From an uncultured Lentisphaerota bacterium (GTDB lineage Bacteria > Verrucomicrobiota > Kiritimatiellia > RFP12 > UBA1067), in NCBI GenBank assembly GCA_900320225.1, contig ONRL01000050.1:1-44609 (forward strand): a DNA stretch of 44,609 nt. Direction: 5' to 3'. Positions 1,433 to 27,302 of the stretch are shown piece after piece (the stretch's first letter is position 1; each line of letters opens with the position of its first letter). The notes under the pieces were generated by a model. The model saw only the letters and a list, made by a program, of their open reading frames with translations, made no database searches and was not told the origin of the DNA. A program made the position numbers and the translations under genes.

Positions 1433-4308
1433 CAAGAGAAAGACACAGCATGAGGACGATTCCCTTTGGAATCGCCGTGGCGGCGGCGTGCCTGGCGGGC
1501 GCGACGGCGTTTGGCGCGGAGCGCACGCTGAGCGCGGACGGCAAGACGCTGACGTTCGACGTCCCCGCCGACGCCGTGTACACGAACACCGTGCCCATCG
1601 AGACGACTGTGACGAACATCGTCAAGGTCGGCGGCGGCGAGGCGTGCTTCGTGCCGCAGACGAACGACGTCTACACGGGCGGCATCCAGATCCGCGAAGG
1701 CTTCCTCTCCGGCCTCCAGCGCTCCTTCGGCAAGCCCGCGGCCATCACGGTCGAGAGCGACCCCGCGACCGGCGTGGGCGGCGCGATCGTGTTCCTCGAC
1801 CTCCTCCCGGGAACTCTCACCACCACGCAGTCCCCGTTCTGGAACACGAAGTGGCACGTCTCCGGCGCCGGCCCCGACGGCACGGGGGCGATCCAGCGTC
1901 CCGTCACGCACTGCGACCACGTCGTCAACGGCCTCATGAAGGAGATCTGGCTGGACGGCGACACCACGATCAACTGCGGCTCGCGGTGGGGGTTCACGTA
2001 CACGACGCTGTACATGAACAACCACAAGCTGACGCTCACCGCGTCGCGCACGACGTGGCCCGGCAGCGCCACCAAGCACGATGCCAATTATTCGCGCATC
2101 TTCCAGTTCGCGCGCTCCGGCGACCTGGCGATCAAGGATCCGGGCGAGGTGTTCCTGACGGGGAACTGCCGCCTGCTCATTGAGGGGTCCGTTAAGGTCA
2201 AGGACGCGGCCGGGTCGAACGGCAGCGTCTCGAACATGCTGGTGACGGTCGACAGGAACTGCGAACTGCGCATCTTCAGCGTCAACCAAGCCAGCGCGCC
2301 GACCTTCCGCACGCACTTCCTCGACGGCAGCGCGTTCAACGTGAACGGCGGCGGGCACTACAAAGGCGCCATCACGCTCGAGGGTCCGTCGGTCACGCTC
2401 CACCAGTACAGCGCCTCGGCGCACGCCTACCTCTACGGCGGCATGACGGGGCCGGCACGCGTCATGCACGAGATTCTCGCCAAATACGATTTCCTCGACA
2501 GCGGCACGAACTACGTGAACGGCATCACCCAGAGAAGCGGGCTGATGACCTTCGGCGGCGACACCACGTTCTACGTGACGAACAGTTTTTACATCGGGAG
2601 CACGACACTGGACGTCCCCGCGGAGGTCAACGTCGTCGGCAACGCCCGCCTCCTCGCCTGCGACGGGATGCGCAAGAGGGGGGAAGAGCGGCGGATACTC
2701 GTCGGGGCGTACTGGGCCGGCGACGCGAAGACGTACGGCATCCTGCGCATCGGCGACAACGCCGTCGTGTCGAACCAGGTCGCGATCGGCTCCTACGGGC
2801 GCGGGGCGGTGTACCTTTCGGGAAACGCCGAGCTCGACTTCTGCGACGGATTTTCGGACAACAACGCGCACATCACGGGCAGCCAGGGCACGAACGGCGA
2901 ACACGCCTACGGCTATCTGGGGATGCTGGGCGGGCTCGCCCGCCAGAACTTCTGGTTCAACATCGGCGGCAACGGCAACACGCGCGCGTTCGTGGTGCAG
3001 CGCGGCGGGCGCTTCGAGCACAACGGCCTCAACGAGCCGGTCCGCTTCGGCTTCAGCGGCGCGAGCCACTGCGCCTACGCCCAGCTGGGCGGGACGTCCA
3101 CGTGGAAGAACGTCGCCACGTTCGGGTTCGCCAACTACACGCCCACATGCGTGAATTCCGTCGGGTCGCTCACCGTCGCGGGCGAGGGGACGCTGATGGA
3201 CATGTCGCCGTCCGCGAACGCGTCGTATCCCGGCATCCTCTGCTGCGCGAACACGAACGCCGCCGCGCCGAACACGGCCAACGTCAACGTCAACGACGGC
3301 GGCACGCTGTACGTGCCGCGGATCTGGCGCGGGCAGGTCAACAGCAGCTCAACGCCGGCGTGGGCGTCGATCACGAGCCTCGTCGCGGCCGGCTCGCAGT
3401 ACTACCTCAACTTCAACGGCGGCATCCTCAAGACGGCGAAGGCGGGCGAGTTCTTCGGCTCCTCCGCCACCGACTCCGTCCGCGAGCTGACGCGCGCGAC
3501 CGTCTACGAGAAGGGCGCGACGATCGACACGGACGGCAAGGACGTGACCTGGCGCATGGCGCTCGAGAAGCCGTACGGCCTCGGCATCCAGTCCGTGGCG
3601 CTTCCGGCGGAGGTGCTGGCCACGACGGCCACGAACCTCTTCATCGGGCCGACGCGTCCGGTGGTGGACGGCCTTTCCAAGCACGGCCGCACGACGGACC
3701 TGTTGCTCGACTTCGACGACACGACGCGCCGCGTGACGAACGTGATCGTGAACGCGCGCGGGTTCGGCTTCACGTCCGCGCCCACCGTCACGTTCGAGAA
3801 GGGAGACGCGAGCGCGACCTGGTCCTGCACGCCCACGATGGTGGACTTCGACGACCCCTCCTTCGCGCACGGCGGCCTCACGAAGCGCGGCGCGGGCAAG
3901 CTCACGCTCACGCGCGCCAACACCTACGGCGGCGCGACGCGCCTGGAGGGCGGCACGCTCATGTTCTCGCACCGGCTGGGCTATCCGGGCGGCGACCTGG
4001 AGCTGCCGGCGGCGGCGGTCTCCGCCCTGACGGCGTCTTCCGAGCCTCTCCTGATGGCCCACACGCTCGCGTTCGCGGCGGGGAAGGGCGTGCGCGTGAC
4101 GGAGGCGGACACGCTCGACGACGAGACCTTCGGCCGGGTCAAGACGGTGGCGACGTTCGCGACGCCGCTGACGGCCGTGCCTTCGCTCACGCTCGTGGCG
4201 AGGGACGGCACGCCCATCTCCAGCCAGCTCTGGAAGCTGAGCCTTGCCGACGGCGGGATGGCCCTGAAGTTCGGCCCCGCGCGCGGCACGGTCATCATCT
4301 TGAGGTAG
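1429..4308 (+). CDS. secreted autotransporter-like PATR beta-strand surface protein
   Basis: This 959-residue protein has an N-terminal signal peptide (hydrophobic IPFGIAVAAACLAGATAFGA after a short basic head). The start at 1429 has GAGGAG at 1414-1419, eight bases upstream; an ATG at 1450 is an alternative. The body is rich in Gly, Asn, Thr and short repeated strands, typical of a right-handed beta-helix. Near residues 815-848 a passenger-associated repeat is recognisable (KRGAGKLTLTRANTYGGATR, then LEGGTLMFS). No outer-membrane beta-barrel domain follows; instead the protein ends in a short hydrophobic tail, GTVIILR. It is probably a cell-surface or secreted structural or adhesive protein. 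The exact function is unknown. Confidence 0.8.
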   Translation: MTRERHSMRTIPFGIAVAAACLAGATAFGAERTLSADGKTLTFDVPADAVYTNTVPIETTVTNIVKVGGGEACFVPQTNDVYTGGIQIREGFLSGLQRSFGKPAAITVESDPATGVGGAIVFLDLLPGTLTTTQSPFWNTKWHVSGAGPDGTGAIQRPVTHCDHVVNGLMKEIWLDGDTTINCGSRWGFTYTTLYMNNHKLTLTASRTTWPGSATKHDANYSRIFQFARSGDLAIKDPGEVFLTGNCRLLIEGSVKVKDAAGSNGSVSNMLVTVDRNCELRIFSVNQASAPTFRTHFLDGSAFNVNGGGHYKGAITLEGPSVTLHQYSASAHAYLYGGMTGPARVMHEILAKYDFLDSGTNYVNGITQRSGLMTFGGDTTFYVTNSFYIGSTTLDVPAEVNVVGNARLLACDGMRKRGEERRILVGAYWAGDAKTYGILRIGDNAVVSNQVAIGSYGRGAVYLSGNAELDFCDGFSDNNAHITGSQGTNGEHAYGYLGMLGGLARQNFWFNIGGNGNTRAFVVQRGGRFEHNGLNEPVRFGFSGASHCAYAQLGGTSTWKNVATFGFANYTPTCVNSVGSLTVAGEGTLMDMSPSANASYPGILCCANTNAAAPNTANVNVNDGGTLYVPRIWRGQVNSSSTPAWASITSLVAAGSQYYLNFNGGILKTAKAGEFFGSSATDSVRELTRATVYEKGATIDTDGKDVTWRMALEKPYGLGIQSVALPAEVLATTATNLFIGPTRPVVDGLSKHGRTTDLLLDFDDTTRRVTNVIVNARGFGFTSAPTVTFEKGDASATWSCTPTMVDFDDPSFAHGGLTKRGAGKLTLTRANTYGGATRLEGGTLMFSHRLGYPGGDLELPAAAVSALTASSEPLLMAHTLAFAAGKGVRVTEADTLDDETFGRVKTVATFATPLTAVPSLTLVARDGTPISSQLWKLSLADGGMALKFGPARGTVIILR

Positions 4309-4480
4309 AGCCTCGGTGGAGACGGACGTGGCGGGCTCGTTCGACATGCCCGCGACGTTGGACGGCTGGACGGCCACGCCTGCGCTCGCCGAAGGGCAGG
4401 GCGAGCCGAAGCTTGTGGTGGAGGACGGCAAGCTGATGCTCAAGATGGGCATCGCGCCAATGATCATTATTATCCGCTAA
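4304..4480 (+). pseudogene. C-terminal remnant of a related secreted protein
   Basis: Directly after the PATR gene a different frame stays open from 4304 to a TAA at 4478-4480. Its end (LVVEDGKLMLKMGIAPMIIIIR) resembles the end of the preceding protein (LADGGMALKFGPARGTVIILR), including the hydrophobic run closed by Arg-stop. No signal peptide, ribosome binding site or convincing start is present; a GTG at 4316 is the only candidate. It looks like the leftover 3' end of a paralogue. Confidence 0.5.
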
Positions 4481-4526
4481 CAGCACGCGCCTTGCGTCCA
4501 GCACGGCGCCGTCGCTCGCGTTCGAC

Positions 4527-5033
4527 GTGATCGAGATGACCGGGTCCTGGCAACTCGGCACCGACAACTGGAGCAACAGCGAGTTCTCGCGCGAGGTGGC
4601 GGTGCCGACCGCATTCTACGTCGGCGACTGGAACTACGCCGGCGTGCAGCGGGGCTGTCCCATGGGCGTCAAGGATATGCATCTGCGCTTCTGGATGCCG
4701 GAGCGGATCGCCGCGCGGCACGCGTTCACGTTTACCGGCCGCGTCGTCGCCCAGGGGGCCGGCAACTATGCGACGCTGACCAACGAGCTGGGCTACGTGA
4801 AAGACCAGTGGCCGTTCTCCGTGCACCTCAACGGCGTGCAGAAGTTCACGACGGGCGGCTTGAAGAACGGAACGGCCTATGCCTTAGCCGTCGACCCCGG
4901 CGAGCTCAAGCCGGGATGGAACGTCATCACGCACCGCAACGACGTGACGGGTGGCGGATGCTGGTTGTGCTGGGATTTCCATCGGCTGAACCTCGTGCCG
5001 ATTCCCTCCGGCACGATGGTGATCCTGCGCTGA
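4527..5033 (+). CDS. C-terminal beta-sandwich fragment ending in the GTMVILR tail
   Basis: The first possible start is the GTG at 4527, but protein-like sequence in the same frame continues upstream to 4464 without a start, ribosome binding site or signal peptide, so this is probably a 5'-truncated gene. The 168 residues contain a pattern like a galactose-binding or carbohydrate-binding beta-sandwich: LRFWMPERIAARHAFTF, FSVHLNGV, then GELKPGWNVITHRN and CWDFHRLNLV. It closes with PSGTMVILR, the same tail seen on the large secreted proteins. It may be what remains of a polysaccharide lyase or hydrolase-associated domain; that assignment is tentative. Confidence 0.5.
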   Translation: MIEMTGSWQLGTDNWSNSEFSREVAVPTAFYVGDWNYAGVQRGCPMGVKDMHLRFWMPERIAARHAFTFTGRVVAQGAGNYATLTNELGYVKDQWPFSVHLNGVQKFTTGGLKNGTAYALAVDPGELKPGWNVITHRNDVTGGGCWLCWDFHRLNLVPIPSGTMVILR

Positions 5034-5093
5034 GGCAAGCACATCGCGATGCTCATCTTCCGTTGGTCGCCGGATGTTGGGACAACGGGCATC

Positions 5094-5122
5094 TTCCCGT
5101 TTCTGCGGCGGTTTGCTATAAT
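5094..5122 (+). promoter_or_regulatory. extended -10 promoter of the rhamnosidase gene
   Basis: TGCTATAAT, with the consensus TATAAT at 5117-5122, and a weak -35 (TTCCCG, 5094-5099) 17 bases upstream. Only seven bases separate the -10 box from the ATG at 5130, which predicts a leaderless mRNA. Confidence 0.6.
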
Positions 5123-5129
5123 AACGCCC

Positions 5130-8100
5130 ATGAAAACCAGAACACTGTTTGCCCTTGTCTGCGCGGCGGCCCTGGAAGGACTGTGCGCGCCCACCTGCAC
5201 TGCGCCGGCCGCCTCTTCGCGTCCGTTCGGCCTCACGGTGGAATGGCGCGTCAACCCCTGCGGAATCGACGTCCCCGCCCCGCGCCTCGCGTGGAAGCAG
5301 GGGCAGGGTCTCCGCAAGGGCGCGAAGGACGTGACGACCGCCGCATGGCGTGTGCTTGCGGCGTCCTCGCGCGCGAAGCTCGACGCCGACCAGGGCGACC
5401 TGTGGGATTCCGGGAAGGTCGCGGGCGCGCAGTCCGTGGGCGTCCCCTACGCCGGCGCGCCGCTCGCCACGTCGCAGCGCGTGTTCTGGAAGGTCAAGAC
5501 CTGGTGCAACTATGGCAAGGAGAGCGACTGGTCGGAGCCGGCCGAGTTCACGATGGGCGTGATGAAGCCGTCCGACTGGTCCGCGAAGTGGATCGGCCCC
5601 GCGCCCGAGACGCGTCCGGACGCCGACCTCACCGGCGCGCAGTGGATCACGGCGCCGAAGGGCAAGAAAGGCGCGGTGACCCTGCGCAAGACTTTCACGT
5701 TCGCCGGCGCGAAGCCGGGCGAGTACGTGGAGATGGTGCATGCCGCCGTGCCGCAGCACGTCGTGCGCGTCAATGGCAAGTCCTGCCATCTCCACAGCGG
5801 CCACATCCACAACTGGCGCTACCTGCGTTTCCGCGACATCACGCCGTGGCTCGTGGTGGGCGAGAACACGATCGAGGTTGAGATCGTGCGTGACAACTTC
5901 AACCCGTCCGTGAAGGAACCGTATGCGTTCCTCGCGCGCTTCAATCTGCCGGGTGGCAAGTCGTTCGGCACGGACACCACCTGGACCTCGCCCGACGGCG
6001 CCGTCTCCGCGCTCGGCGCGGCGAAGGAGCCCGCGTTCGCGAAGGGGCTCGTCACGCGCTGCGAGAACGCCTCGCCCGCGTTCGAGAAGACCTTCACCGT
6101 GTCGAAGCCCGTCGCCTCCGCCGTTCTGCACGTGACGGGCGTGGGCTTCTACGAGGCGTCCCTCAACGGCACGAAGATCGGCACGAAGGTGCTCGACCCC
6201 TCGCCCACGATGTTCGACCACCGCGTCCTCTACTCCACCTATCGCCTCGACGGCGACCTCAAGTCCGGCGCAAACACGCTGCGGATCCTCGTGGGCCACG
6301 GCTGGTACGACGTGCGCTCCATCGCCACGTGGAACTTCGACGTGGCGCCGTGGCGCGACTTCCCGCGCGCGATCGCCCAGCTGGAGATCACGTATGCCGA
6401 CGGCACGCGCGAGACGGTGGCGACCGACGGCTCGTGGCGTCAGGTGGCGAGCCCGGTGGGCTACGACTGCATCCGCGAGGGCGAGGTGATCGGCGGGCGC
6501 GACCCGTCGATGCCCGACCTCGACGGCCGTGTGGTGCGCGCGGTCGAGGTGCCGGGCCCGAAGGGCGCGCTCATGGCCGAGAACTGCCCCGGCGCCGAGG
6601 TGATGCGCACGCTCAAGCCGCGTTCCGTCAAGGACCTCGGCGGCGGCGCGTACATGGTCACGTTCCCCGAGAACATGGCCGGGTGGGTGCGCCTTACGCT
6701 GCGCGGGCAGCAGAAGGGCGACGTGGTGTCGATCCGCTATGACGAGCGCGCGAACGCGGACGGCACGCCCGCCGCGGGATCCGTGCGCGACGGCCTGCAC
6801 GACAAGGCGCCGGAAGGCCGGGAAACCCGCATGATCGACCACCATTTCCGCTATCCCGCCTCGCAGCGCGTCTGCGCGCAGGACGCCGCGTTCCAGACGG
6901 ACCGCTACGTCTGCTCCGGCCGCGACGGGGAGGTGTACGAGCCGCGCTTCACCTACAACGGCTTCCAGTACGTCCTCATCAAGGGCCTCCGCCGGGCGCC
7001 GGCCGCGGAGGACGTGACGGCGTGCATCGTGCACACCGCGTTCTCCACGATCGCTTCCTTCGCCTGCTCGGACGAGACGTTCAACACGCTCATGCGCATG
7101 GGCGACCGCGCCTACCGCTCGAACTTCGTCGATGGCTATCCCACGGACTGCCCGCACCGCGAGAAGAACGGCTGGACGGGCGACGCGTCGATCGCGAGCG
7201 AGCTCGCGCAGTACTGCTTCGAGAACACGGCCGCCTACGAGAAGTGGCTGCGCGACATCTGCGACACGCAGCTTGCGAACGGCGACATCTGCTGCATCGT
7301 GCCCACGTCGGGCTGGGGGTTCGTGTGGGGCAACGGCCCCGCGTGGGACAGCGCGCTCCCCGTGATCGCGTGGACGCTCTGGACATACCGCGACGACCGC
7401 CACGTGCTCGACGCCATCTATCCCACGCTCAAGCGCTACCTCGCCTACACGGCGACGCGTGCGGACGGCGACGGGCTCGTGAAGCACGGACTCGGCGACT
7501 GGGTTCCCGTCGACCGCAAGTACTTTCCCTCCACGGGGCTGACAAGCTCCTGCTATTACTACCAGGCGCTGCGGATCGCGTCCGAGATCGCCGCCGTCAA
7601 GGGGCTTTCCGCGGAGTCCGCGGCCTACGCGGCGGCGGCCGCGCGCACGCGCGCCGGCATCAACAAGAAGTTCTACAAGGGCGACGGCGTGTACGACAAC
7701 GGCGGACAGACCGCGCAGGCGTTCCCGATCGCGTACGGCGTGGTCGAGGAAACCCAGCGCGCCGCCACGGCCGCGAAGCTCGTCGCGAGCGTGGAGAGCA
7801 TGGACCGCCACGTGAACATGGGACTGCTCGGCACGAAGCACGTGTTCCGCGCGCTCTCCCGCATCGGCCGCACCGACCTCGCGTTCAAGATGCTCGTGAA
7901 CCCCACGAAGCCCTCGATGGTGGAGTGGATCCAGAAGGGCGGCACCACGCTCTGGGAGGACTGGAACAACGGCTCGAGCCGCAACCACATCATGTTCGGC
8001 GACTTCATGGGCCGTGCCGGTGGTGAAGGCGCGCAGCTTCAAGGAACTCGTGATCGCGCCGCAGGTCATCGAGGATCTGACGTGGGTGAAGGCGTCCGTC

Positions 8101-8270
8101 AACGGCCCCTACGGCAAGATCGTCAGCGCGTGGAAGCGCGACGGCAAGAAGGTGACGCTCGACGTGACGATTCCTCCCAACACGACGGCCACGGTGAAGC
8201 TGCCCGGAAACGCGCCAACGCGCGCGGGGTCGGGTACGTATTCGTTCACGGCCACGTTGCCGTGACGTGA
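5130..8270 (+). CDS. alpha-L-rhamnosidase, GH78 (C-terminus frameshifted)
   Basis: A signal peptide (MKTRTLFALVCAAALEG) indicates export. The protein then follows the GH78 architecture: an N-terminal Ig-like and lectin-like region (residues ~30-500) and an (alpha/alpha)6 catalytic barrel with DCPHREKNGWTGDA near residues 673-686, which carries the general-acid region. GH78 enzymes release L-rhamnose from plant glycans such as rhamnogalacturonan and flavonoid glycosides. Around 8010-8016, just after SRNHIMFGDFM, the reading frame changes: the family's C-terminal beta-sandwich continues in the +1 frame (see 8014-8265), and about ten expected residues seem to be missing. The frame annotated here ends in about 85 unrelated residues. 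No Shine-Dalgarno precedes the ATG. Confidence 0.8.
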   Translation: MKTRTLFALVCAAALEGLCAPTCTAPAASSRPFGLTVEWRVNPCGIDVPAPRLAWKQGQGLRKGAKDVTTAAWRVLAASSRAKLDADQGDLWDSGKVAGAQSVGVPYAGAPLATSQRVFWKVKTWCNYGKESDWSEPAEFTMGVMKPSDWSAKWIGPAPETRPDADLTGAQWITAPKGKKGAVTLRKTFTFAGAKPGEYVEMVHAAVPQHVVRVNGKSCHLHSGHIHNWRYLRFRDITPWLVVGENTIEVEIVRDNFNPSVKEPYAFLARFNLPGGKSFGTDTTWTSPDGAVSALGAAKEPAFAKGLVTRCENASPAFEKTFTVSKPVASAVLHVTGVGFYEASLNGTKIGTKVLDPSPTMFDHRVLYSTYRLDGDLKSGANTLRILVGHGWYDVRSIATWNFDVAPWRDFPRAIAQLEITYADGTRETVATDGSWRQVASPVGYDCIREGEVIGGRDPSMPDLDGRVVRAVEVPGPKGALMAENCPGAEVMRTLKPRSVKDLGGGAYMVTFPENMAGWVRLTLRGQQKGDVVSIRYDERANADGTPAAGSVRDGLHDKAPEGRETRMIDHHFRYPASQRVCAQDAAFQTDRYVCSGRDGEVYEPRFTYNGFQYVLIKGLRRAPAAEDVTACIVHTAFSTIASFACSDETFNTLMRMGDRAYRSNFVDGYPTDCPHREKNGWTGDASIASELAQYCFENTAAYEKWLRDICDTQLANGDICCIVPTSGWGFVWGNGPAWDSALPVIAWTLWTYRDDRHVLDAIYPTLKRYLAYTATRADGDGLVKHGLGDWVPVDRKYFPSTGLTSSCYYYQALRIASEIAAVKGLSAESAAYAAAAARTRAGINKKFYKGDGVYDNGGQTAQAFPIAYGVVEETQRAATAAKLVASVESMDRHVNMGLLGTKHVFRALSRIGRTDLAFKMLVNPTKPSMVEWIQKGGTTLWEDWNNGSSRNHIMFGDFMGRAGGEGAQLQGTRDRAAGHRGSDVGEGVRQRPLRQDRQRVEARRQEGDARRDDSSQHDGHGEAARKRANARGVGYVFVHGHVAVT
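8014..8265 (+). pseudogene. out-of-frame C-terminal domain of the GH78 rhamnosidase
   Basis: This frame encodes the expected GH78 C-terminal sandwich: KELVIAPQVIEDLTWVKASV, GPYGKIVSAWKRDGKKVTLD, then IPPNTTATVKLPG. It is continuous in family logic with the catalytic domain encoded upstream but lies one frame away. It has no start signal of its own. Either the genome carries a small out-of-frame deletion near 8012 or the assembly is wrong at that point. Confidence 0.75.
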
Positions 8271-8287
8271 CAGATGGAGATGCGGCG

Positions 8288-9223
8288 GTGGGTGTTTCAC
8301 GGCGGAGATTTCTCGGATGCTTTGGTTCGGCGGTGGCCGTGCCGCGGCTGTTTGCCAAGGCACCAGGGGATTTCGACGCCGATCTTACCGTTCTGCTGAG
8401 CGACCTGCACGTGAACGGCATCTCGAATTCGCACCAGCTTGGAAGGCTGGAGCGCGCCGTGGGCGAGATCCTCGCGCTCAATCCGCTGCCGGCGCGGGCC
8501 GTCGTGTTTGGCGACATCGCCTGCATGTACGGGCGCAAGGAAGACTATGCGCGGGCGGCGGCACCGCTCAAGCGCCTCGAGGACGCGGGTGTCTCCGTGA
8601 CGCTGGGCGTCGGCAACCACGACCGGCGATCGACGTTTCTCGAGGCATATCCCTCATACGCAACGAACACGAAAGTGCCCGGGCGTATTGTCTCCGTGTG
8701 CGATGCAGGTGCCGTCGATTTCATTATGCTCGATGGGCTTCAAGGCACAGATGACCGCGCCTTGAACGACAGTGGACCCAACAACGGACAGCTTGACAAG
8801 GACCAGCAGGACTGGTTTGCGTCGGCGCTTCCCGCGTGGAAAAAGCCCGTGTTCGTGTGTTCGCACTTTCCTGTCGGCGACCTGTCAGTGTGCGGCAAGC
8901 CGCTTGCGTACCTTCTTGTACGTACGCCGTCCGTGGTTGGATACATCCACGGGCACGACCATCGCTGGTACACGCGTGAGGTACGCGAGGCCTGGTCTAA
9001 GGCTGCGCCCAAGCGGAGTCTCTGCTTGCCGTCCACGGGCGCCTGGGGAGACATAGGTTACGCGCTCCTGCGCACGTCCAAGGGACGCGCCGTTGCCTCG
9101 CTCGTGCAGCGCGAGTTCTTCTACCCGAAGCCGCCGAAGCCAGACGCACCCGTGCTGCGGCTCTGGAACGCCATCGTGGAGGCGAACCGGAGCCAGTCCT
9201 GCGCCTTCACGTGGACGCCATAG
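8288..9223 (+). CDS. Tat-exported calcineurin-like metallophosphoesterase
   Basis: The GTG at 8288 is preferred because GGAG lies eight bases upstream (8276-8279) and it begins right at the Tat signal (VGVSRRRFLGCFGSAVAV). A GTG at 8267 is the longer alternative. The 311-residue protein shows the metallophosphoesterase motif series: LLSDLHV, VVFGDIAC, GVGNHDRR, CSHFPVGD and GYIHGHDH. It is expected to be periplasmic; the substrate is unknown. It directly follows the rhamnosidase and may be cotranscribed with it. Its stop is followed, in the same frame, by a short coding-like stretch ending in the GTMVIVR tail. Confidence 0.85.
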   Translation: MGVSRRRFLGCFGSAVAVPRLFAKAPGDFDADLTVLLSDLHVNGISNSHQLGRLERAVGEILALNPLPARAVVFGDIACMYGRKEDYARAAAPLKRLEDAGVSVTLGVGNHDRRSTFLEAYPSYATNTKVPGRIVSVCDAGAVDFIMLDGLQGTDDRALNDSGPNNGQLDKDQQDWFASALPAWKKPVFVCSHFPVGDLSVCGKPLAYLLVRTPSVVGYIHGHDHRWYTREVREAWSKAAPKRSLCLPSTGAWGDIGYALLRTSKGRAVASLVQREFFYPKPPKPDAPVLRLWNAIVEANRSQSCAFTWTP

Positions 9224-9286
9224 CCCTCAGTTCGTCAATTAGAGCGTGCGCGTGACGAATCGGGCACGATGGTGATTGTGCGGTAG
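9224..9286 (+). pseudogene. orphan GTMVIVR tail in frame after the phosphoesterase stop
   Basis: Between the TAG at 9221-9223 and a second in-frame TAG at 9284-9286 there are 20 sense codons ending ESGTMVIVR. This is the same C-terminal tail found on the secreted proteins of this window. It could be a remnant of a lost gene, or a tail reached only by stop readthrough. It has no start signal. Confidence 0.4.
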
Positions 9287-9290
9287 TGCC

Positions 9291-9319
9291 TTGTGCGCCG
9301 GGGCGTGCTGTGGTATACT
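9291..9319 (+). promoter_or_regulatory. sigma70-type promoter of the MFS gene
   Basis: TTGTGC (9291-9296), a 17-base spacer and TATACT (9314-9319). Unlike several other promoters here it leaves a leader of about 15 bases that carries a GAAGAGG ribosome binding site. Confidence 0.65.
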
Positions 9320-9340
9320 TTTTGCCGCGAAGAGGCGAAA

Positions 9341-14297: not shown

Positions 14298-14303
14298 CGC
14301 AAG

Positions 14304-14332
14304 ATTATACCACTTATTCCGCCGACGTGAAA
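14304..14332 (-). promoter_or_regulatory. promoter of hrpA (leaderless)
   Basis: On the minus strand TATAAT (14309-14304) ends six bases before the GTG start at 14297. A weak -35 (TTTCAC, 14332-14327) lies 17 bases upstream. Confidence 0.6.
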
Positions 14333-14343
14333 CTGGTTAGCAC

Positions 14344-14374
14344 TTCCCGTTAAAGGATCTCAGTATGCTATAAT
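14344..14374 (+). promoter_or_regulatory. extended -10 promoter of the esterase gene
   Basis: TGCTATAAT with TATAAT at 14369-14374; a weak TTCCCG (14344-14349) is 19 bases upstream. An ATG seven bases downstream (14382) opens a short ORF before the main gene. Confidence 0.55.
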
Positions 14375-14381
14375 ATGCGCA

Positions 14382-14411
14382 ATGGAAAACAGGAACGAAA
14401 CACGAACATGA
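14382..14411 (+). CDS. possible leaderless 9-codon upstream ORF overlapping the esterase start
   Basis: The predicted transcription start falls on or beside this ATG. The ORF encodes MENRNETRT, and its TGA (14409-14411) overlaps the ATG of the esterase (14408-14410) as ATGA. The layout copies that at 1406-1432, with a similar length but a different sequence. Translation is a prediction only. Confidence 0.35.
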   Translation: MENRNETRT

Positions 14412-15523: not shown

Positions 15524-15536
15524 CCATTTGTTGCCA

Positions 15537-15566
15537 TTGCCACATGTTGGGGAGATGTGATAAACT
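15537..15566 (+). promoter_or_regulatory. promoter of metF
   Basis: TTGCCA (15537-15542), an 18-base spacer and TAAACT (15561-15566). An in-frame ATG at 15572 lies five bases after the -10 box; the conserved metF start is nine codons further on. Confidence 0.5.
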
Positions 15567-15598
15567 ATTCCATGTTTGCTGATTCTCAATACAGAACT

Positions 15599-16459: not shown

Positions 16460-16477
16460 ACGAGAAAGGGAAACACG

Positions 16478-18013: not shown

Positions 18014-18056
18014 GCGCGCACGGTCCAGGTTTTATATTAAATCAAGGAGATAATCG

Positions 18057-19331: not shown

Positions 19332-19357
19332 AGTTGGCTAAGTGGCGTGCGTGACGC

Positions 19358-19380
19358 GGCCGGAGGCTTCACTCCGGGCC
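19358..19380. repeat. small GC-rich inverted repeat
   Basis: GGCCGGAG, a loop and CTCCGGGCC can fold with one bulged G. It lies just after the PHP-like gene and just before the larger hairpin at 19388-19427. Confidence 0.4.
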
Positions 19381-19387
19381 CCTTAGT

Positions 19388-19427
19388 CTGCGGAACGCGG
19401 GGCGCTTACGCGCCCCGCGTTCCGCAG
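19388..19427. repeat. perfect 18-bp hairpin between genes
   Basis: The arm 19388-19405 (CTGCGGAACGCGGGGCGC) is exactly complementary to 19410-19427 around a TTAC loop. There is no T-run on either side, so it is not a classical terminator, although it may still stop transcription or protect the 3' end of the upstream mRNA. The rest of the 190-base gap holds no coding signal apart from the promoter of the next gene. Confidence 0.75.
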
Positions 19428-19488
19428 CCCGCATTCCCGAAGCGAACCTCCGCTCCGCGCCCCGCACGCCCAGACCCCGGTTCAAGGC

Positions 19489-19517
19489 TTTCCGCCAAGG
19501 GCTAAATGTGATACAAT
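19489..19517 (+). promoter_or_regulatory. promoter of the tannase-family gene (leaderless)
   Basis: TTTCCG (19489-19494), a 17-base spacer and TACAAT (19512-19517). Seven bases separate the -10 box from the ATG at 19525. An ATG at 19516 overlaps the -10 box and cannot be the start. Confidence 0.55.
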
Positions 19518-19524
19518 GGAGTGC

Positions 19525-21006
19525 ATGAAAACAAAAACGATTGTTGGTGCTGTGGCCGTGTGCGCGGTCCTATCGCTTTACGGTGCGAACGGCCTGGCGG
19601 GCGTCAAGTCGGTTGGAGATTCGGTCTGCTCGGTTTCCGATTCCGTGGTGATGTCCAACGGTATCGCGATTGTGGACTATGTGCTGAAGCCGGAGACGGA
19701 GAGCCACATCGGGTGCAGGATTGCGTTGCCGCCTCCCGAGAAATGGAACGGTGAGTTCTGGGGCATTGGAAACAGCAGCTTCGGCGGCGTGTTGCCGGAC
19801 ACCTACGGGCTTTCAGTGGCGATGAACGCCGCGGCGGCCACCACGGACCTCGGGACTTCCGCCTATGTTTCCAGAAACGGGCGTAAGAAGGACGTCCCGC
19901 CGGCGGTCCTGCGTGACTACGCCTGGCGCGCGACGCACCTCATGACCGTCTACGGGAAGCGCATCGTGAAGGCGTTTTACGGACGAGACGCGCGGCATGC
20001 CTATTTCCGCGGCGGATCGTGCGGAGGCCGCCAGGGGCTGACCGAGGTGATGCGCTTCCCGGCCGACTACGACGGCGTCCTCTCGTCCATTCCCGCCGCG
20101 TTTTCCACGGTGAGCAGTGCGCAGTTCGTGAACCTGTACGGCCAGACGCACGACGACCAGGGGCGGGCCCTCTTCACCCGCGAGCAGCTGCGCGTCGTGG
20201 CCGACGCGCCCATCGAATACATGAAGGACCGCGACCCGAAGCCGTATGCGGGGAAGGTGCTCGCCAATCCGTTCCTTTCGGAGCGTGACATCGAGGGCTT
20301 CCTCGCGCTCGCGGCGAAGAAGGATCCGTCGCTCGCGGACTCCGATCTGCAGCGACGGCTCAAGAACGTCTTCATGGGCGTCTCGCGCAACGGAAAGACC
20401 GTCTGCCACGGCATGCTGCCGGGCGCGTTCTTCGGCTTCACGCGGGGGCGCGACTTCGAGTGCAAGGGCGGTTCCCTCGGGGATTTGAGGCGGAGGCGGC
20501 TGGGCGTGGACAAGGCCCTGACCTGGGACGAATACGACGAGGAGGTCGCGCGTAACGGAAGCCTCTTGAACGCCTGCTCCACCGACTTGAGCGCCTTCCG
20601 CGACCGCGGCGGGAAGCTGATCGTCCTGTGCGGCTGGGAGGACCAGACGACGCCGAGTCCGGAGACCGTGGCCTGGTACGAGATGCTCGCCGAACGGAAC
20701 GGCGGTTACGACAAGACCGGCGCGTTCTGCCGGCTCTTTGCCTTGCCCGGCCATGCACACGGCGGCGGGAAGGGACGCATCAGCACGGCGGGTGGCTACA
20801 CGATCAAGCACCTCGACCTGCTTCGCAAGTGGGTCGAGGAGGGGACGGCGCCGGAAACCTATCCGCAGCTCTGGAAGGAGATGAACCTGACGATTCCCAA
20901 TCCTCCGTATCCGTTCATGTGCTACCAGGACGAAAGCGGCAACTGGCAGACGAAACGCTATCCCGAGGGCATGGTGCGGCGTCCTGATCCGGCGTACATG
21001 CCCTGA
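19525..21006 (+). CDS. tannase/feruloyl esterase family protein
   Basis: A signal peptide (MKTKTIVGAVAVCAVLSLYG) is followed by the tannase family fold: IALPPPEKWNGEFWGIGNSS, the nucleophile motif YFRGGSCGGRQG with Ser near residue 165, and a C-terminal catalytic region with LIVLCGWEDQTTPSPETVAW (Asp) and LPGHAHGG (His). These enzymes hydrolyse ester bonds of gallate or ferulate attached to plant polymers and act outside the cytoplasm. Length is 493 residues, normal for the family. Together with the rhamnosidase and mannosidase it points to use of plant cell-wall or tannin-linked material. The ATG at 19525 is chosen from the promoter position and the signal peptide. Confidence 0.82.
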   Translation: MKTKTIVGAVAVCAVLSLYGANGLAGVKSVGDSVCSVSDSVVMSNGIAIVDYVLKPETESHIGCRIALPPPEKWNGEFWGIGNSSFGGVLPDTYGLSVAMNAAAATTDLGTSAYVSRNGRKKDVPPAVLRDYAWRATHLMTVYGKRIVKAFYGRDARHAYFRGGSCGGRQGLTEVMRFPADYDGVLSSIPAAFSTVSSAQFVNLYGQTHDDQGRALFTREQLRVVADAPIEYMKDRDPKPYAGKVLANPFLSERDIEGFLALAAKKDPSLADSDLQRRLKNVFMGVSRNGKTVCHGMLPGAFFGFTRGRDFECKGGSLGDLRRRRLGVDKALTWDEYDEEVARNGSLLNACSTDLSAFRDRGGKLIVLCGWEDQTTPSPETVAWYEMLAERNGGYDKTGAFCRLFALPGHAHGGGKGRISTAGGYTIKHLDLLRKWVEEGTAPETYPQLWKEMNLTIPNPPYPFMCYQDESGNWQTKRYPEGMVRRPDPAYMP

Positions 21007-21010
21007 GCGC

Positions 21011-21041
21011 GTGATTGGCCGCGCCTGTCGCGGCCAATCAC
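21011..21041. terminator. 13-bp perfect hairpin after the tannase-family gene
   Basis: GTGATTGGCCGCG, loop CCTGT, CGCGGCCAATCAC. The stem is perfect but lacks a U-tract, so it is a possible, not certain, terminator. A smaller TGCC/GGCA stem follows. Confidence 0.45.
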
Positions 21042-21155
21042 TGCCTTGCGGGCAGCGACGCTGGCGGTGTGGCGGCGACGATACGGGTCTGGACGAAGGA
21101 GCCTGCGGACGACGGGACGAAGCCCGCCGCGACGGAGCTCGAACAGCTTTCGTGA

Positions 21156-21185
21156 TTGACAGTCGGGGCCGTGCCGTGCTAAACT
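21156..21185 (+). promoter_or_regulatory. consensus promoter of the LamG/PATR protein (leaderless)
   Basis: Perfect TTGACA (21156-21161), an 18-base spacer and TAAACT (21180-21185). Six bases separate the -10 box from the ATG at 21192, so the transcript should begin at the start codon. Confidence 0.7.
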
Positions 21186-21191
21186 TACGGC

Positions 21192-24100
21192 ATGAAATCA
21201 CATGTTTTCCACTTTCTTGTGGTTGTCGCGGCTTGCGCGACCCTTCCGGCGCGGGCGGCGCTGACGGTGACGGCGACGAACGGCGTGGAGTCGCTCACGC
21301 TCGCGTTCGACGCGGCGGCGGGCGCGCGCGAGCTGTGGTGCGCGTGGGACGACGCCGACAAGGGCGCGGGTTTCGCCGACTGGGCGGAGAGCGAGCGCGT
21401 GGCGATCGTCGCGGCCGACGAGACCGCGCTCACAGTCGCGCTCCCGAACAACGCGCGGCGCGCGGCCTTCGCGCGGTTCTTCCTCTTCGCGGGCGGTGCG
21501 TCGTATCCCTGCGCGTTCATCCGTACAGGTTACTTCGTGGGACCGAACAGCGCCGTGAGCGTGGACTACGTGATGGAGGACGTCGTCACGCTCCAGCAGC
21601 GCCCGTTCGGCGCGAGCGGCAGCACGTTCGTGATCTCCGCCTACATCAACAGCGCCGCATCCTGGAGCTGGGCGTTCACCGACGGCGCGACCGGGAACTG
21701 GACGAACACGAACCTCGACTTCCAGAAGAGGCGCACCATCTTCACCATCGACGGGCCGAACGACCGCATCTCGCTTGCGTACGACGGCGTGGAGGCGTAC
21801 TCCGGCAGCATGTCGGCCGCCGTCCCGCTCGAGAAGCGCACGCAGACATGCGACGTGCCGCTCAGTCTCTGCGCGAACGGCAACACGACCGGCGCCAGCG
21901 ACTTCGCCACGATGAGGCTCTACGGGGCGACGATCGACGAGGCGGGCGTGCGCCAGCACACCTTCGCGCCGTACGTCTCGGCGGGCGTGGCGGGCGTGTA
22001 CGACAGCACGGCGGATGCCTTCTTCGGCAACGCGGGCACAGGCGCGTTTACGCCGTGCGGACGCGGCGGGGACGTCTCGGGCGCAGAGGCGGGCGAGGCG
22101 CTCGACCTCGACGCGGTGCGGGGCGGCCCGGTCGGGCCGGAGACGGTCTACGTGAACGTCGGGAAGACAAAGACGGTGACGTTCGACGGACCGGCGACGA
22201 TCGACTACAGGCTGGTGAAGATCGGCGAAGGCACGCTCGTCCTGGAGGGGACGCGCACGTTCAACGAGGACGTGATCATCTCCAACGGCATCCTGCGCGC
22301 GAACTGGGCGACGAGCGGCCTCGCCGGCACGCACCTCGGAATCTGCAACGCCGGCTCGAATGCCAATCTCTGCTATTTCCAGGAGACGAGCGATTCGTTC
22401 ACGGCGCCAGTGGCGGCGAGCGGTCGGGGCACCGTGGAACTGTACGGCTATTCGGGCGTCATTCCGTTCCGGCAGGACCTCACCGTCAACTTCGGCGGCG
22501 ACGGGCGGACGGTGACGTGCCGCGTGAACGGGTTCAACACCACCAGCTTCTGGCTGACCCACGACAGCTCGACGAACAGCACGACGTTCCTGAACAACAT
22601 CGACTTCGCGGGCAAGAACCTCGAGAGCAAGGGCAGTGGCAGCGGTACGGCGTATTACACCGGATACATCACGAACTCGACTCCGTCGGCTGAAGGCACC
22701 TGGAACTTCTGGGGCGGCAAGCAGGTGCTCGTAGGTACGCGGGGAACCGCGAACGCGCGCGTGGATTTCTTCGGTTACCGCATCTCCAACAATGCATCAA
22801 CGCTCATCTTATCCAACGCCATCATACGTACGTCCAACGACTTTATCGGCGGAAGCGCGTATAATCATGTTTGCCACACGACGCTCGCGAACTGCGACAA
22901 GAACTCCACCGGCGGCTGGGACTACGGCGGAGCCGGTTATACGAATACGACGTTCACCATTATCGGCGGCACGTTCGCGCGGTCGGGCGGCCACCTGAAT
23001 TGCGGATATACAGGCAACCGCGTGGGAACATGCGTCGTTACGAACGGCGCGACTGTAACCTCTCCCACGCTCCGCACGTATCCAGGCGGCGTCTATCGCC
23101 AGTTCGACGGAACTTCCACGTTCAATCAGCTGTTGCAGTACGGCGGGCTTGCGGAAATGCGCGGTGGCCGGATGAACCTGACGTCGGGCGAACAGCACAT
23201 CGGTTCTTCCGGCCCGCTCGGCCCGTCGTCGTTTGCAATGTATGGCGGTACGCTGTATGTCTCTGACGGACAGAACATGCAGATCGGTTCCTACTCGAAG
23301 GGATGGTTCCACCAGGAGGGCGGGGAAGTGTCCGTTCCTAACTATTTCGCAGTGGGCCGGTACGGCGCCGGTGTCGGGTTGCTGGACGTCCACGGTGGCA
23401 CGTTCACGCACCGCGCCCAGAACTACCTTCGCATCGCCGAGGACGGCACGGGCACCGTGTCCGTGGCGAACGGCGGCACGTTCGTTGACCTTGCCGCCTA
23501 CTCGCCGATCTCGCAGAACGCCGCCGGCAAGGGAACAGCCATCCTCTCGCCCGACGGCACGTTCGAGACTCCGCAGTTCAGGGCCGGTGCGGCGGGACGC
23601 AACAGCAGCGTCGTGTTCAACGGCGGCACGATGAAGTTGCGCACGAACGGCTATCCTTCGAGCTTCCTCGACAGCACGATCTCGCGCGTGACGGTGTCGC
23701 CTTACGGCGGCGCGATCGACACGAACGGGCAAGGCGACTTCACGCTGAACCGCGCGCTCGGACCGACGACGGACGCGGGCGACCTCTCGGAGGCGCTGGC
23801 GCACCGCTGGAGCTTCAAGAGCGGTTCGCTCGCGGACAGCGTCGGCGGCTTGACGGCGACGGTGAACGGCACCGTGGACCTGGAGGACGGCGCGGTGCGC
23901 CTGAAGGGACTCGCCAGAGGCCAGAGCTGCGTCAACCTCGGCACGGACCTGCTGCCGACGGACGGGCGCGGCGCGACGATCGAAGTGTGGGTGACGCCGC
24001 TTTCGTTCAAGAGCTGGTCGCGCGTGGTCGACTTCGGCACGGGGAGCGAGGGGACGGGCAAGGACTTCTACTTCTCGTTCAACGACGGAAACAACAACGC

Positions 24101-25025
24101 CTCCGCCCGGACGCATTTCCGCGCCATCGGCACGTCCTTGGACTGCTACATCTCGACCGCGCTGACGCCGGGCAAGACCTACCACCTTGCGCTCGTGTTC
24201 GCCCCGCAGCCTGACGGCGCCTTCCTCAACACGGCTTATATCCACGATGCGACGACGGGCGAACTGCTGAACGTCGGGCAGGGCAAGTGCGCCGTTGGCT
24301 GGACGCTGGGCGACATCCCGCAGACGAACGGCTGCTGGCTGGGCCATTCGAGCTATGCCAGCAACAACGACCCCGACGCGCGCTACCACGAGGTGCGCAT
24401 CCACCACCGCCCGATGTCGGCCGCGCAGGCAGAGGCGAGCTGCCTCGCGGGTCCTGACGCCGTGTACTACTTCCGCAAGAAAGGCGAGGGCACGCTCACG
24501 ATGACGGGCGCGAACACGTACGCGACCGGCACGGCCGTAGATGGCGGGACACTGAAGCTCGCGAGCGGCGCGACGCTGCCGACGACAGAGATGTGGACGA
24601 GTTCTGGCGCGACGCTCGATCTCAACGGCACGTCGCAGACGGCCCGCGAGTTGGGCGGCACGGGCACAATCAAGGGCGGCACGCTCGCCGTGACGGACAC
24701 GATCCAGCCGGGCGGACGCAAGACCGTCGGCACGCTCACGGTGGACGGCACGACGCTCACGTCCGGCACGCTCGTTGTGGATATCGGCGCGAATGGCGCG
24801 AGCGACTGCCTCGCGGCGACGGGCACGCTCGACCTCTCGAACCTCTCGCTCGCGCTCAGCGATGTGACGGCGCTCGACGAAACGAAGGTCTACACGATTG
24901 CCACGGCAACGGAGGTGACGGGAACCTTTGCGCACGCGGACATCCCGAAAAAGTGGAGGGTATCCGTCCTCGGATCGCAGGTGAAGCTCGGTTACGCCAA
25001 CGGCACGGTGCTGTTTTTCAGGTAG
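21192..25025 (+). CDS. large secreted PATR/LamG surface protein
   Basis: The 1277-residue protein starts with a signal peptide (MKSHVFHFLVVVAACATLPA). Residues ~100-300 form a domain also repeated in the next gene (GVYDSTADAFFG is its closing motif). A beta-helix passenger region with repeats such as KIGEGTLVLEGTRTFNEDV follows. A LamG/concanavalin-like domain is at ~866-1086 (HRWSFKSGSL, ATIEVWVTPLSF, YHLALVF). A PATR repeat is near 1096-1130 (KKGEGTLTMTGANTYATGT). The end, VKLGYANGTVLFFR, is the shared C-terminal tail. No beta-barrel translocator is present. It is probably displayed on or released from the cell surface and may bind carbohydrate; the role is unknown. Confidence 0.8.
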   Translation: MKSHVFHFLVVVAACATLPARAALTVTATNGVESLTLAFDAAAGARELWCAWDDADKGAGFADWAESERVAIVAADETALTVALPNNARRAAFARFFLFAGGASYPCAFIRTGYFVGPNSAVSVDYVMEDVVTLQQRPFGASGSTFVISAYINSAASWSWAFTDGATGNWTNTNLDFQKRRTIFTIDGPNDRISLAYDGVEAYSGSMSAAVPLEKRTQTCDVPLSLCANGNTTGASDFATMRLYGATIDEAGVRQHTFAPYVSAGVAGVYDSTADAFFGNAGTGAFTPCGRGGDVSGAEAGEALDLDAVRGGPVGPETVYVNVGKTKTVTFDGPATIDYRLVKIGEGTLVLEGTRTFNEDVIISNGILRANWATSGLAGTHLGICNAGSNANLCYFQETSDSFTAPVAASGRGTVELYGYSGVIPFRQDLTVNFGGDGRTVTCRVNGFNTTSFWLTHDSSTNSTTFLNNIDFAGKNLESKGSGSGTAYYTGYITNSTPSAEGTWNFWGGKQVLVGTRGTANARVDFFGYRISNNASTLILSNAIIRTSNDFIGGSAYNHVCHTTLANCDKNSTGGWDYGGAGYTNTTFTIIGGTFARSGGHLNCGYTGNRVGTCVVTNGATVTSPTLRTYPGGVYRQFDGTSTFNQLLQYGGLAEMRGGRMNLTSGEQHIGSSGPLGPSSFAMYGGTLYVSDGQNMQIGSYSKGWFHQEGGEVSVPNYFAVGRYGAGVGLLDVHGGTFTHRAQNYLRIAEDGTGTVSVANGGTFVDLAAYSPISQNAAGKGTAILSPDGTFETPQFRAGAAGRNSSVVFNGGTMKLRTNGYPSSFLDSTISRVTVSPYGGAIDTNGQGDFTLNRALGPTTDAGDLSEALAHRWSFKSGSLADSVGGLTATVNGTVDLEDGAVRLKGLARGQSCVNLGTDLLPTDGRGATIEVWVTPLSFKSWSRVVDFGTGSEGTGKDFYFSFNDGNNNASARTHFRAIGTSLDCYISTALTPGKTYHLALVFAPQPDGAFLNTAYIHDATTGELLNVGQGKCAVGWTLGDIPQTNGCWLGHSSYASNNDPDARYHEVRIHHRPMSAAQAEASCLAGPDAVYYFRKKGEGTLTMTGANTYATGTAVDGGTLKLASGATLPTTEMWTSSGATLDLNGTSQTARELGGTGTIKGGTLAVTDTIQPGGRKTVGTLTVDGTTLTSGTLVVDIGANGASDCLAATGTLDLSNLSLALSDVTALDETKVYTIATATEVTGTFAHADIPKKWRVSVLGSQVKLGYANGTVLFFR

Positions 25026-25067
25026 AGTCATTGTTCCAGTAGAGGTATCGCACGAGAGGAGTCAACC

Positions 25068-27302
25068 ATGCTTAAGCATATTCTTGCCGCAAGGAAACAT
25101 GTCGCGATCGGGCTTGCCGTCGGACTGGCGGCGCTCGCCACGGGCGCGTTCGCGGACGCTGCCACGGGCCGCGTCCGGCACATGGCGGACACGTACCTGC
25201 AAAGCGACGGCACGCAGATCATCGACACGGGCTTCATCGCCACCACGAACATGCGCGTGGAGGTGGTGTTCGAGCCGATCAACCCTGACTTTACGAAGTA
25301 TACGCGGTACGTGTGGGGATCCAATGCCAGCGCCTCCAGCAGCGGAGCTGCGCAGATGCGTTTTTCGACATACGTCCAGAACAATGATGCCGCAAAACGT
25401 TACGGCGGAGTCATGTTCATCTCCGGCGCATCGTCGAATACAACGTGGCAAGGAGGAATCTCGGCCACGCGCTCGCGCATCAAGGCCGTCTTGGACTACA
25501 GGAACCGGGTGATTGAGCAGTGGTCGGGGGACGTCAAGTGCTGGAACGGCACGCCGAACAACCCAGGCTTCGAGTCGGCGGGATTCCCCGTGGTTCTTTT
25601 CGGCGCGTGCCAAAATGCGAATGCGGCTCCGACTCCGTCGTTCATCGGGCGGATCTATTCTTTTGCGATTTACGACAAGGGCGTGCTCGTGCGCGACATG
25701 GTTCCGTACGGGCGCGGGGCTGTGACGGGAATGCTCGACCGTTGCTCGGGAAAGGTCTACACCAAGACGCGCGGCAACGCGTTCGTCCTCGGCACGGACG
25801 ACGGCTACGTGCGGAGCGACCGCGCGAAACTTGGCGGCGGGCAGTGGCTTGATACCGGATTCTATGCCGATCCGCAGACGAAGATCGAGGTCGATTTCCG
25901 CTTCATGGATCCGTCAACCAAGCAGCAGCGCGTGTTTGGCGTGGACCAAGGACCGTTTGTATGCGTCCTCTACATCAACGGCAGCGGGAGTTTGGCGTGG
26001 GGCTTGCAGGACGACGTCGGCAACTGGCAGCCGATGATCGCGGCCGACACCGCTCGGCACACGTTCACGCTCGACGGCCCGAACTCGACAATCAGGCTCG
26101 CCGGGTCAGACGGCACGGTACAGTGGGAGGGGACGGTCGGGACGACGCGCACCAAGACGACATGCGCGCCGATCACGGTGTTCGGCGGAACCAGCACGAA
26201 CGGAACGGGGGCGGCGATCCTGACCAATCCGGGTTCCGTCTGCATCTACGGGATGAAGATCTGGAACGGCGCGACGCTCGTGCGCGACTACGTGCCGCGC
26301 GTAGTCGACGGCGTGGAAGGTCTGTACGACAGGGAGAACGGAACTTTCGTTACGGTCGATACGACGAAGTCGCGTGCCCGCTTGTCCTCTGGCGGAGACG
26401 TGGAGTGCGTCGCGACATCCGGTACGCTTGCCGACAGCATGGACGCCTACCTCATGGACGTTGGCGGGCAAGCCATCGAACCGGGCTACACCGTCGCTCG
26501 CAACATGCGCTTCGAGATCGATTTCGCGATGGACTGCTTCCACGGCACGCAGTACCTGTACGGCACGGACATGAACGGCATCTACTACCAGCTAAGCAGT
26601 GGCAGCCGCAACGTAAGCGGCAAGGTTCGCAACGCTTCCGGTGGCACGAGCTGGCTCTGGCTCAACGACGGGAAAGCGACGCCGTCCCGCTACAGGGTCA
26701 CGGTCGACTACAAGAATTCGAAGATTCAATTCAAGTACCCTGACGGAACGATCAAGGATACGGCGATGACGCTCCCTTCCGAGTTCCCTGCCGCCCAGCA
26801 GACGATGCTGATCATGCACACGCGCGCGGGCGGCGGCGGATCTCTGGCGCGCGTCTATTCCTTTGCCGTGTACGAGGACGACGTGCTGACGCACCGCTAC
26901 ACGCCGTGCGTGGAGAACGGCGTCGCGGGCATGTGGGACAGCGTCGGCAAGCGATTCCTCGGCAATTCCAAGACGGCCGACGGGAAGGGTTTCACGTTCC
27001 ACGGCGCGGGCATGGACGGCGGCGGCATGGCGTTCACCGAGCATCCGCAGGGCGGCCGCCTCTCGCGCGGGCATACGCTCACGCTGACGGCCTTCGCGCC
27101 GGGCGCGGTTGGCTACCAGTGGCTCAAGAACGGCGCGATCGTCGAAGGCGCGACCGGCCGGACGCTGGAGGTGGCGTACGGCGAGGGTGGCACGACGGAC
27201 ACGTACCAGTGCGTCTCGCACTACGAGCTTTTCGGCTACGGCGTCTCGGAAGTGGCGCAGGTCGAGAACCTGCCCAGCGGCACGGCGGTGATCATACGCT
27301 AG
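25068..27302 (+). CDS. secreted protein with three tandem LamG-like repeats and an Ig-like domain
   Basis: GAGAGGAG lies at proper spacing before the ATG, and the gene follows its neighbour by 42 bases, so the two are probably cotranscribed. After a signal peptide (residues ~1-30) come three repeats of about 200 residues (~42-243, ~245-455, ~460-650). Each opens with a strand such as IIDTGF, WLDTGF or AIEPGY, and closes with a recurring pattern (VTGMLDRCSGKVY, VEGLYDRENGTFV, VAGMWDSVGKRFL). An Ig-like domain follows (~655-737, GYQWLKNGAIVEGATGRTL). The final residues are PSGTAVIIR, the shared tail. The architecture suggests an adhesin or glycan-binding surface protein. The ligand is unknown. 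Confidence 0.78.
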   Translation: MLKHILAARKHVAIGLAVGLAALATGAFADAATGRVRHMADTYLQSDGTQIIDTGFIATTNMRVEVVFEPINPDFTKYTRYVWGSNASASSSGAAQMRFSTYVQNNDAAKRYGGVMFISGASSNTTWQGGISATRSRIKAVLDYRNRVIEQWSGDVKCWNGTPNNPGFESAGFPVVLFGACQNANAAPTPSFIGRIYSFAIYDKGVLVRDMVPYGRGAVTGMLDRCSGKVYTKTRGNAFVLGTDDGYVRSDRAKLGGGQWLDTGFYADPQTKIEVDFRFMDPSTKQQRVFGVDQGPFVCVLYINGSGSLAWGLQDDVGNWQPMIAADTARHTFTLDGPNSTIRLAGSDGTVQWEGTVGTTRTKTTCAPITVFGGTSTNGTGAAILTNPGSVCIYGMKIWNGATLVRDYVPRVVDGVEGLYDRENGTFVTVDTTKSRARLSSGGDVECVATSGTLADSMDAYLMDVGGQAIEPGYTVARNMRFEIDFAMDCFHGTQYLYGTDMNGIYYQLSSGSRNVSGKVRNASGGTSWLWLNDGKATPSRYRVTVDYKNSKIQFKYPDGTIKDTAMTLPSEFPAAQQTMLIMHTRAGGGGSLARVYSFAVYEDDVLTHRYTPCVENGVAGMWDSVGKRFLGNSKTADGKGFTFHGAGMDGGGMAFTEHPQGGRLSRGHTLTLTAFAPGAVGYQWLKNGAIVEGATGRTLEVAYGEGGTTDTYQCVSHYELFGYGVSEVAQVENLPSGTAVIIR

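Follow-up and report, generated by a model that had tools for sequence, protein, structure and literature searches.

A seven-residue C-terminal tail, probably a sorting signal, on predicted surface proteins of a rumen Kiritimatiellae bacterium

Introduction

Why should proteins with unlike C-terminal domains finish in the same few residues? The question is raised by a 44,609-nucleotide stretch of DNA from an uncultured Lentisphaerota bacterium (the window, meaning here the whole stretch that was analysed), in which four tails of the form G-T-x-φφφ-R (φ, hydrophobic) lie exactly at stop codons: GTVIILR at 4285-4308, GTMVILR at 5010-5033, GTVLFFR at 25002-25025 and GTAVIIR at 27279-27302. All four had been placed correctly by a first-pass annotation of the sequence. 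The window has two more, both likewise followed by a stop: PMIIIIR at 4457-4480, which is a variant, and GTMVIVR at 9263-9286, which stands isolated. The AdoHcyase of the window has 92% identity to that of a Kiritimatiellae metagenome-assembled genome from dairy cattle rumen, and the genome to which the window belongs (G000; 5.2 Mb in 351 contigs) is that of a rumen member of the Kiritimatiellae.

About 100 predicted exported surface proteins of this bacterium end in the seven-residue tag. The motif [P]-x-G-T-x-φφφ-(R/K)-COOH is, to judge from sequence comparisons, most likely a C-terminal sorting signal of exported beta-rich surface proteins that replaces PEP-CTERM in part of the Kiritimatiellae. 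Known signals of this kind have led to whole envelope systems, namely those of sortase, exosortase, type IX secretion (T9SS), rhombosortase and myxosortase; the GT tail is shorter than the signals of all five, lacks a membrane helix and stands in for PEP-CTERM on homologous proteins.

A fixed-length peptide motif at the chain end

The genome scan with a C-terminal pattern that the first-pass annotation had proposed was run on G000 at the DNA level (GGN ACN NNN NTN NTN NTN MGN TRR), with the same pattern reversed as control. G-T-x-φφφ-R-stop gave 92 matches and the reversed pattern two, while a pattern one residue shorter gave one match against one in its control, which indicates that the spacing matters. 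In approximately 1.06 Mb taken around the tail sites, with genes called by a codon-bias script, tails stood at 69 of 558 complete C-termini, and a single internal copy was present in 294,374 residues. When the number of hydrophobic residues in GT-x-φ(n)-[RK]-stop was varied over 4,311 open reading frame ends, n = 3 returned 82 ends, n = 1, 2, 4, 5 or 6 none, and n = 0 four. The residue that follows GT-x-φφφ was Arg in 76 cases, Lys in six and Gln in one. Gly occupied position -7 in 98 of 112 genes ending in three hydrophobic residues plus Arg or Lys, with GT not required, compared with 11% of internal sites. The resulting consensus is P-x-G-T-[MVT]-[ILV]-I-F-R-stop, with Pro at -9 in 27 of 100 tails and often a short hydrophobic strand in the preceding residues. 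A chance origin of the pattern is excluded.

The tail codons differ at their wobble positions, the tails make use of all three stop codons, and none of the 60 bases after the stops carries more than 0.12 bit. The variation of the codons and the flat downstream DNA imply that selection acts on the peptide, and that the tail is a peptide motif. The same observations were the main ground for rejecting the reading of the tail as a DNA or translation-termination element; such an element would fit a few orphan tails that are not part of intact genes, two of which are separated by 61 bp, but we regard it as scarcely credible.

Unrelated carriers with predicted signal peptides

The first-pass annotation had held that the tail is not part of one fold, and had named as an alternative the last strand of one homologous domain. 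When the 98 tail genes that encode 100 amino acids or more were sorted by BLAST, they formed approximately 38 groups, of up to 26 members, between which no homology extended to the C-terminus, which bears out the former claim and speaks against the latter. A single old domain, shared by descent but diverged beyond the reach of BLAST and kept for folding, is in our estimate very improbable. It would account for the many beta-helix and PATR (passenger-associated transport repeat) carriers, for the group of 26 and for the hydrophobic strand before the tail, but tails also follow LamG, Ig-like, choice-of-anchor Q, F5/8 and other ends, exact spacing with a terminal Arg or Lys and a free upstream sequence is atypical of a folding core, and the same LamG end carries PEP-CTERM in related genomes. 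Of 76 homologues of tail proteins whose alignment runs to the very last residues, the tail is present in 68 and a near variant in the other eight, such as ATMLLVK, ATFLFVR, GTVVVFQ or STVLFIR. AlphaFold models of two tail domains, computed from single sequences, had pLDDT values of 36 and 29 and were unusable.

Signal peptides were called by a strict scripted heuristic with a false rate of 1.5%, measured on internal segments. They were detected in 51 of 75 tail genes as against 140 of 360 other genes on the same contigs. Of 143 genes in 285 kb selected without regard to tails, 37 (26%) had a signal peptide and none had the tail. The enrichment for which a test had been suggested was thus found (51/75 versus 37/143; odds ratio 6.1, p = 3e-9). 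For roughly one quarter to one third of the tail genes the heuristic detected no signal peptide, and many of these are truncated or frame-disrupted. Together with the unrelated C-terminal groups, the enrichment supports the first-pass proposal of a short recognition or anchoring signal, a function that would still be one predicted from sequence.

Pfam domains in 58 tail proteins comprised PATR (20 proteins), LamG, Chlamydia PMP repeats, beta-helix, F5/8, PA14, GLEYA and BspA-type LRR, and one endonuclease/phosphatase-type domain, whereas 60 tail-less signal-peptide proteins contained mainly enzymes (GFO/IDH/MocA, metallophosphatases, GH2, GH5, GH28, GH92 and FAD oxidoreductases). The tail therefore divides the exported proteome between adhesin- or lectin-like proteins, which have it, and proteins that are mostly enzymes, which do not. 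Choice-of-anchor domains, in NCBI naming, are domain families whose C-terminal anchor differs by lineage. Types Q, C and J (NF041518, TIGR04362 and NF038128) were found in tail proteins and adjoin the tail in separate families, so that the GT tail takes the position of the anchor here; the difference from other such proteins is that no known sorting-signal model matched the tail proteins among the NCBIfam matches listed. The Q-type end (VDIGCYE) leads straight into a GT tail in G000 and in a second genome (G166), and a similar end does likewise in G110.

Distribution and relation to PEP-CTERM

Among 289 genomes of the phylum, the tail stood clearly above the reversed control within this class only; the genomes of the clade are apparently all metagenome assemblies, with some genes frame-disrupted. 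It is carried by many genera of the window's own family (f1), by families f3 and f4, which belong to the same order, and elsewhere in the class by f15, f20, f26 and, weakly, f23; in the same scan, family f2 was at the level of the reversed control. In f1 and f26 the form that ends in Lys is common. Representative ends, each followed by a stop, are DGTLMLLK and GTVLIVR (G101), PGGTLIIVR (G110), GTLIMVR (G260), GTMFIFR (G166), GTILIVR (G193) and GTMVLVR (G202).

The counts of tails were compared with those of PEP-CTERM proteins (PF07589, E up to 0.1). PEP-CTERM proteins numbered at most eight in all 19 genomes with at least five net tails, with one to eight true ones persisting in tail-rich genomes, and reached 92 in tail-less genomes. 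Over 80 genomes the two counts were inversely related (Spearman -0.45, p = 3e-5, uncorrected for phylogeny), and averaging over 32 families, the sole phylogenetic correction applied, gave -0.42 (p = 0.017). A few families carry neither signal.

The relation extends to individual proteins. PATR proteins end in classical PEP-CTERM sequences (IPEPSTILLTMILLGSALLLGRRSK) in G015, a tail-less genome of the same class, and in GT tails in G000 and G101. Similar LamG ends carry a GT tail in G260 and PEP-CTERM in G207, and a homologous LamG end of G000, FDELRVSEGVLPVSAFLRAQPNGTMVIVR followed by a stop, aligns with one of G093, IDEVRVSDNVLSSSELMVVPEPSSLVLILMSAGVFVLGLRRRG followed by a stop (E = 1e-4). 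The GT tail and PEP-CTERM thus occupy the same junction on homologous LamG domains. The G000/G093 pair is the most direct evidence, at the level of sequence, that the one may have replaced the other. The first-pass comparison of the logic of the tail with that of PEP-CTERM is strengthened by the shared junction and by the anticorrelation across genomes.

The two signals are nevertheless distinct in composition. PEP-CTERM with its exosortase (Haft et al. 2006, PMC1569441) likewise marks many unrelated signal-peptide proteins, dozens of them in a genome, with a short C-terminal signal; in relatives it is found on the same classes of protein and at the same junction. However, the GT tail has no Pro-Glu-Pro motif, no membrane helix and, in place of a basic cluster, a single terminal Arg or Lys. 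The best 15-residue hydropathy had a median of 1.0 in tail proteins versus 2.4 in PEP-CTERM proteins, and a value of at least 1.6 was reached by 15 of 97 of the former and by 32 of 32 of the latter. Lacking a helix, the tail cannot be a membrane anchor. These checks agree with the first-pass statements that there is neither a PEP motif nor a long membrane helix and that the tail is too short to span a membrane.

That the tail is a degenerate PEP-CTERM still processed by exosortase is extremely improbable. Exosortase is present, and Pro at -9 with GT-φ recalls P-E-P-G-T-L-L; however, the absence of PEP, the lack in most tails of a helix of PEP-CTERM strength, the persistence of true PEP-CTERM proteins beside the tails and the absence of PEP-CTERM from the NCBIfam matches listed all count against it. 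Furthermore, exosortase was found in 22 of 22 Kiritimatiellae genomes searched, with or without tails and even where PEP-CTERM proteins are few, and thus seems not to track the GT tail. Processing of the tail by exosortase is unlikely, and descent of the tail from a truncated PEP-CTERM is possible. The single exosortase of G000 (C328, L256:5933-7717) has a weak EpsI-like C-terminal part, and its gene adjoins housekeeping genes and a gene resembling WecA/EPS sugar transferases (lipid-linked sugar transferase).

Candidate machinery

The first-pass annotation had suggested a search for a co-occurring protease or translocon, and no dedicated one was found. The T9SS translocon SprA was absent from all 11 Kiritimatiellae genomes searched, with three of three Bacteroidota controls strongly positive. 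Strong Omp85 matches are single-copy in tail genomes, with no expansion, and secretins occur in every genome searched and do not discriminate. Among the NCBIfam matches listed for tail proteins there was no T9SS model, nor any match to LPXTG/sortase, GlyGly-CTERM or MYXO-CTERM, and the tails are mostly without a helix.

Two further readings were considered. The BAM beta-signal has the consensus zeta-x-G-x-x-[aromatic/hydrophobic]-x-[aromatic/hydrophobic] at the end of the barrel (PMC10945584), and BamA might read the tail in the same way, the strand docking at the BamA gate so that barrel-less beta-solenoids reach or cross the outer membrane. The two share a C-terminal strand, a Gly and spaced hydrophobic residues: the Gly, the hydrophobic residue at +3 and the frequent Phe at +5 fit GxxΦxΦ (PMC10945584), and BamA is present in all tail genomes. 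On the other hand, the polar first position of the consensus is not conserved, the three hydrophobic residues are consecutive rather than alternating, an extra Arg or Lys closes the chain, and no barrel precedes the tail as judged by Pfam. BamA itself ends in GFE or GYGF and is present also in PEP-CTERM genomes of the same class that have no tail, and we consider recognition by BamA quite unlikely. The BamA ends read IGFE, with an acidic last residue, in the tail-bearing G260, G202 and G231, and VGYGF in G110.

Alternatively, the tail could serve docking or self-assembly in place of export, as a donor strand that fits into a groove on a shared scaffold or on the following subunit. A short, strongly beta-forming segment that is conserved over unrelated domains and confined to adhesin- or lectin-like proteins would suit this role, but the tail sits at the junction used by PEP-CTERM and varies inversely with it, both of which favour sorting, and no scaffold was identified; a donor strand is therefore an unlikely, if somewhat less strained, explanation.

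Proposed role of the tail

What marks a C-terminal sorting signal in general, a motif tied to the C-terminus of many unrelated proteins with N-terminal signal peptides, is seen here. The fixed length, the unrelated adhesive carriers with signal peptides, the inverse distribution of PEP-CTERM and the shared junction all lead to the sorting-signal reading. The tail is probably a so far undescribed cell-surface address label; a literature search, with most subscription journals outside its coverage, returned no published description of it.

The composition of the tail is beta-forming, the chain end is required, and either Arg or Lys is accepted. A tail protein would cross the inner membrane by Sec, after which the tail would form a short hydrophobic beta-strand closed by the positive residue at the chain end. 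There the tail would be read by a receptor of the periplasm or outer membrane, much as T9SS reads the C-terminal strand of its cargo, and the receptor would then deliver or anchor the protein at the surface. The existence of the signal is well supported, and we infer the receptor and the strand-docking step. More tentatively, and with rather less confidence than in the signal itself, the GT tail may label an undescribed outer-membrane export or anchoring system of the Kiritimatiellae with a receptor of its own, displacing PEP-CTERM and derived perhaps from a truncated PEP-CTERM (PEP-GTLMLL to GTLMLLK).

The closest working analogy is the C-terminal domain of type IX secretion, in which the last hydrophobic strand ('motif C-t.'), with basic residues at its end, is essential for export, and in which removal of two residues from RgpB stops export (PMC11285876). 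Ends of the KLIKK type resemble the tail, but tail proteins have approximately 38 unrelated ends in place of a conserved Ig-like domain of 70-80 residues, and SprA is absent. The replacement of PEP-CTERM means that related genomes offer a natural before-and-after comparison for a receptor search, and the tail would allow the surface proteome to be predicted for a group of rumen bacteria of which little has been cultured.

Tail genes in the window and isolated tails

All tail features of the window lie on the forward strand. Three are genes with a predicted signal peptide: a PATR beta-solenoid protein (1429-4308; PATR 34.7 bits) ending in GTVIILR, a PATR/LamG protein (21192-25025) ending in GTVLFFR, and a protein with LamG-like repeats and an Ig-like end (25068-27302) ending in GTAVIIR, whose domains were assigned by eye and which had no match in a Pfam search. 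Right after the first gene, an open stretch without a start (4310-4480), for which a homology search returned nothing, ends in the tail variant APMIIIIR and is probably a remnant. It is followed by a start-less C-terminal domain (4485-5033) ending in GTMVILR, which matches the C-terminal domain of another G000 protein, of 900 aa, at 37% identity and a 607-aa tail protein at 29%. The first-pass annotation had taken this beta-sandwich fragment (4527-5033) for a secreted protein; its tail stands, but with no credible start or signal peptide it is better described as the end of a broken gene of a secreted protein. The isolated GTMVIVR belongs to an open stretch of 20 codons downstream of a metallophosphatase gene and is a probable remnant. 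Between these features, 5049-8270 encodes a large secreted enzyme, by eye an alpha-rhamnosidase, whose charged, low-complexity last residues suggest a frameshift near the 3' end of the gene.

Short or start-less stretches with orphan tails occur elsewhere in G000, at C14:2170, C189:877, C274:9720, C325:1470, C326:6438 and C326:6499, the last two in different frames. Their appearance suggests 3' gene ends that have decayed or recombined, or frameshifts in the assembly; this reading was preferred to one of functional cassettes for the stretches that end in a tail but lack a start. In G000, several tail genes follow one another on the same strand at C246:285-17430, and three of them form a local paralogue group ending in GTM[LI]LLK, with Lys for Arg. 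In G101, C66:230001-280000 contains near-tandem PATR genes of 2,600-2,900 codons, each ending in DGT[LI]MLLK, and the same genome also holds a 6,459-codon open frame with PATR repeats.
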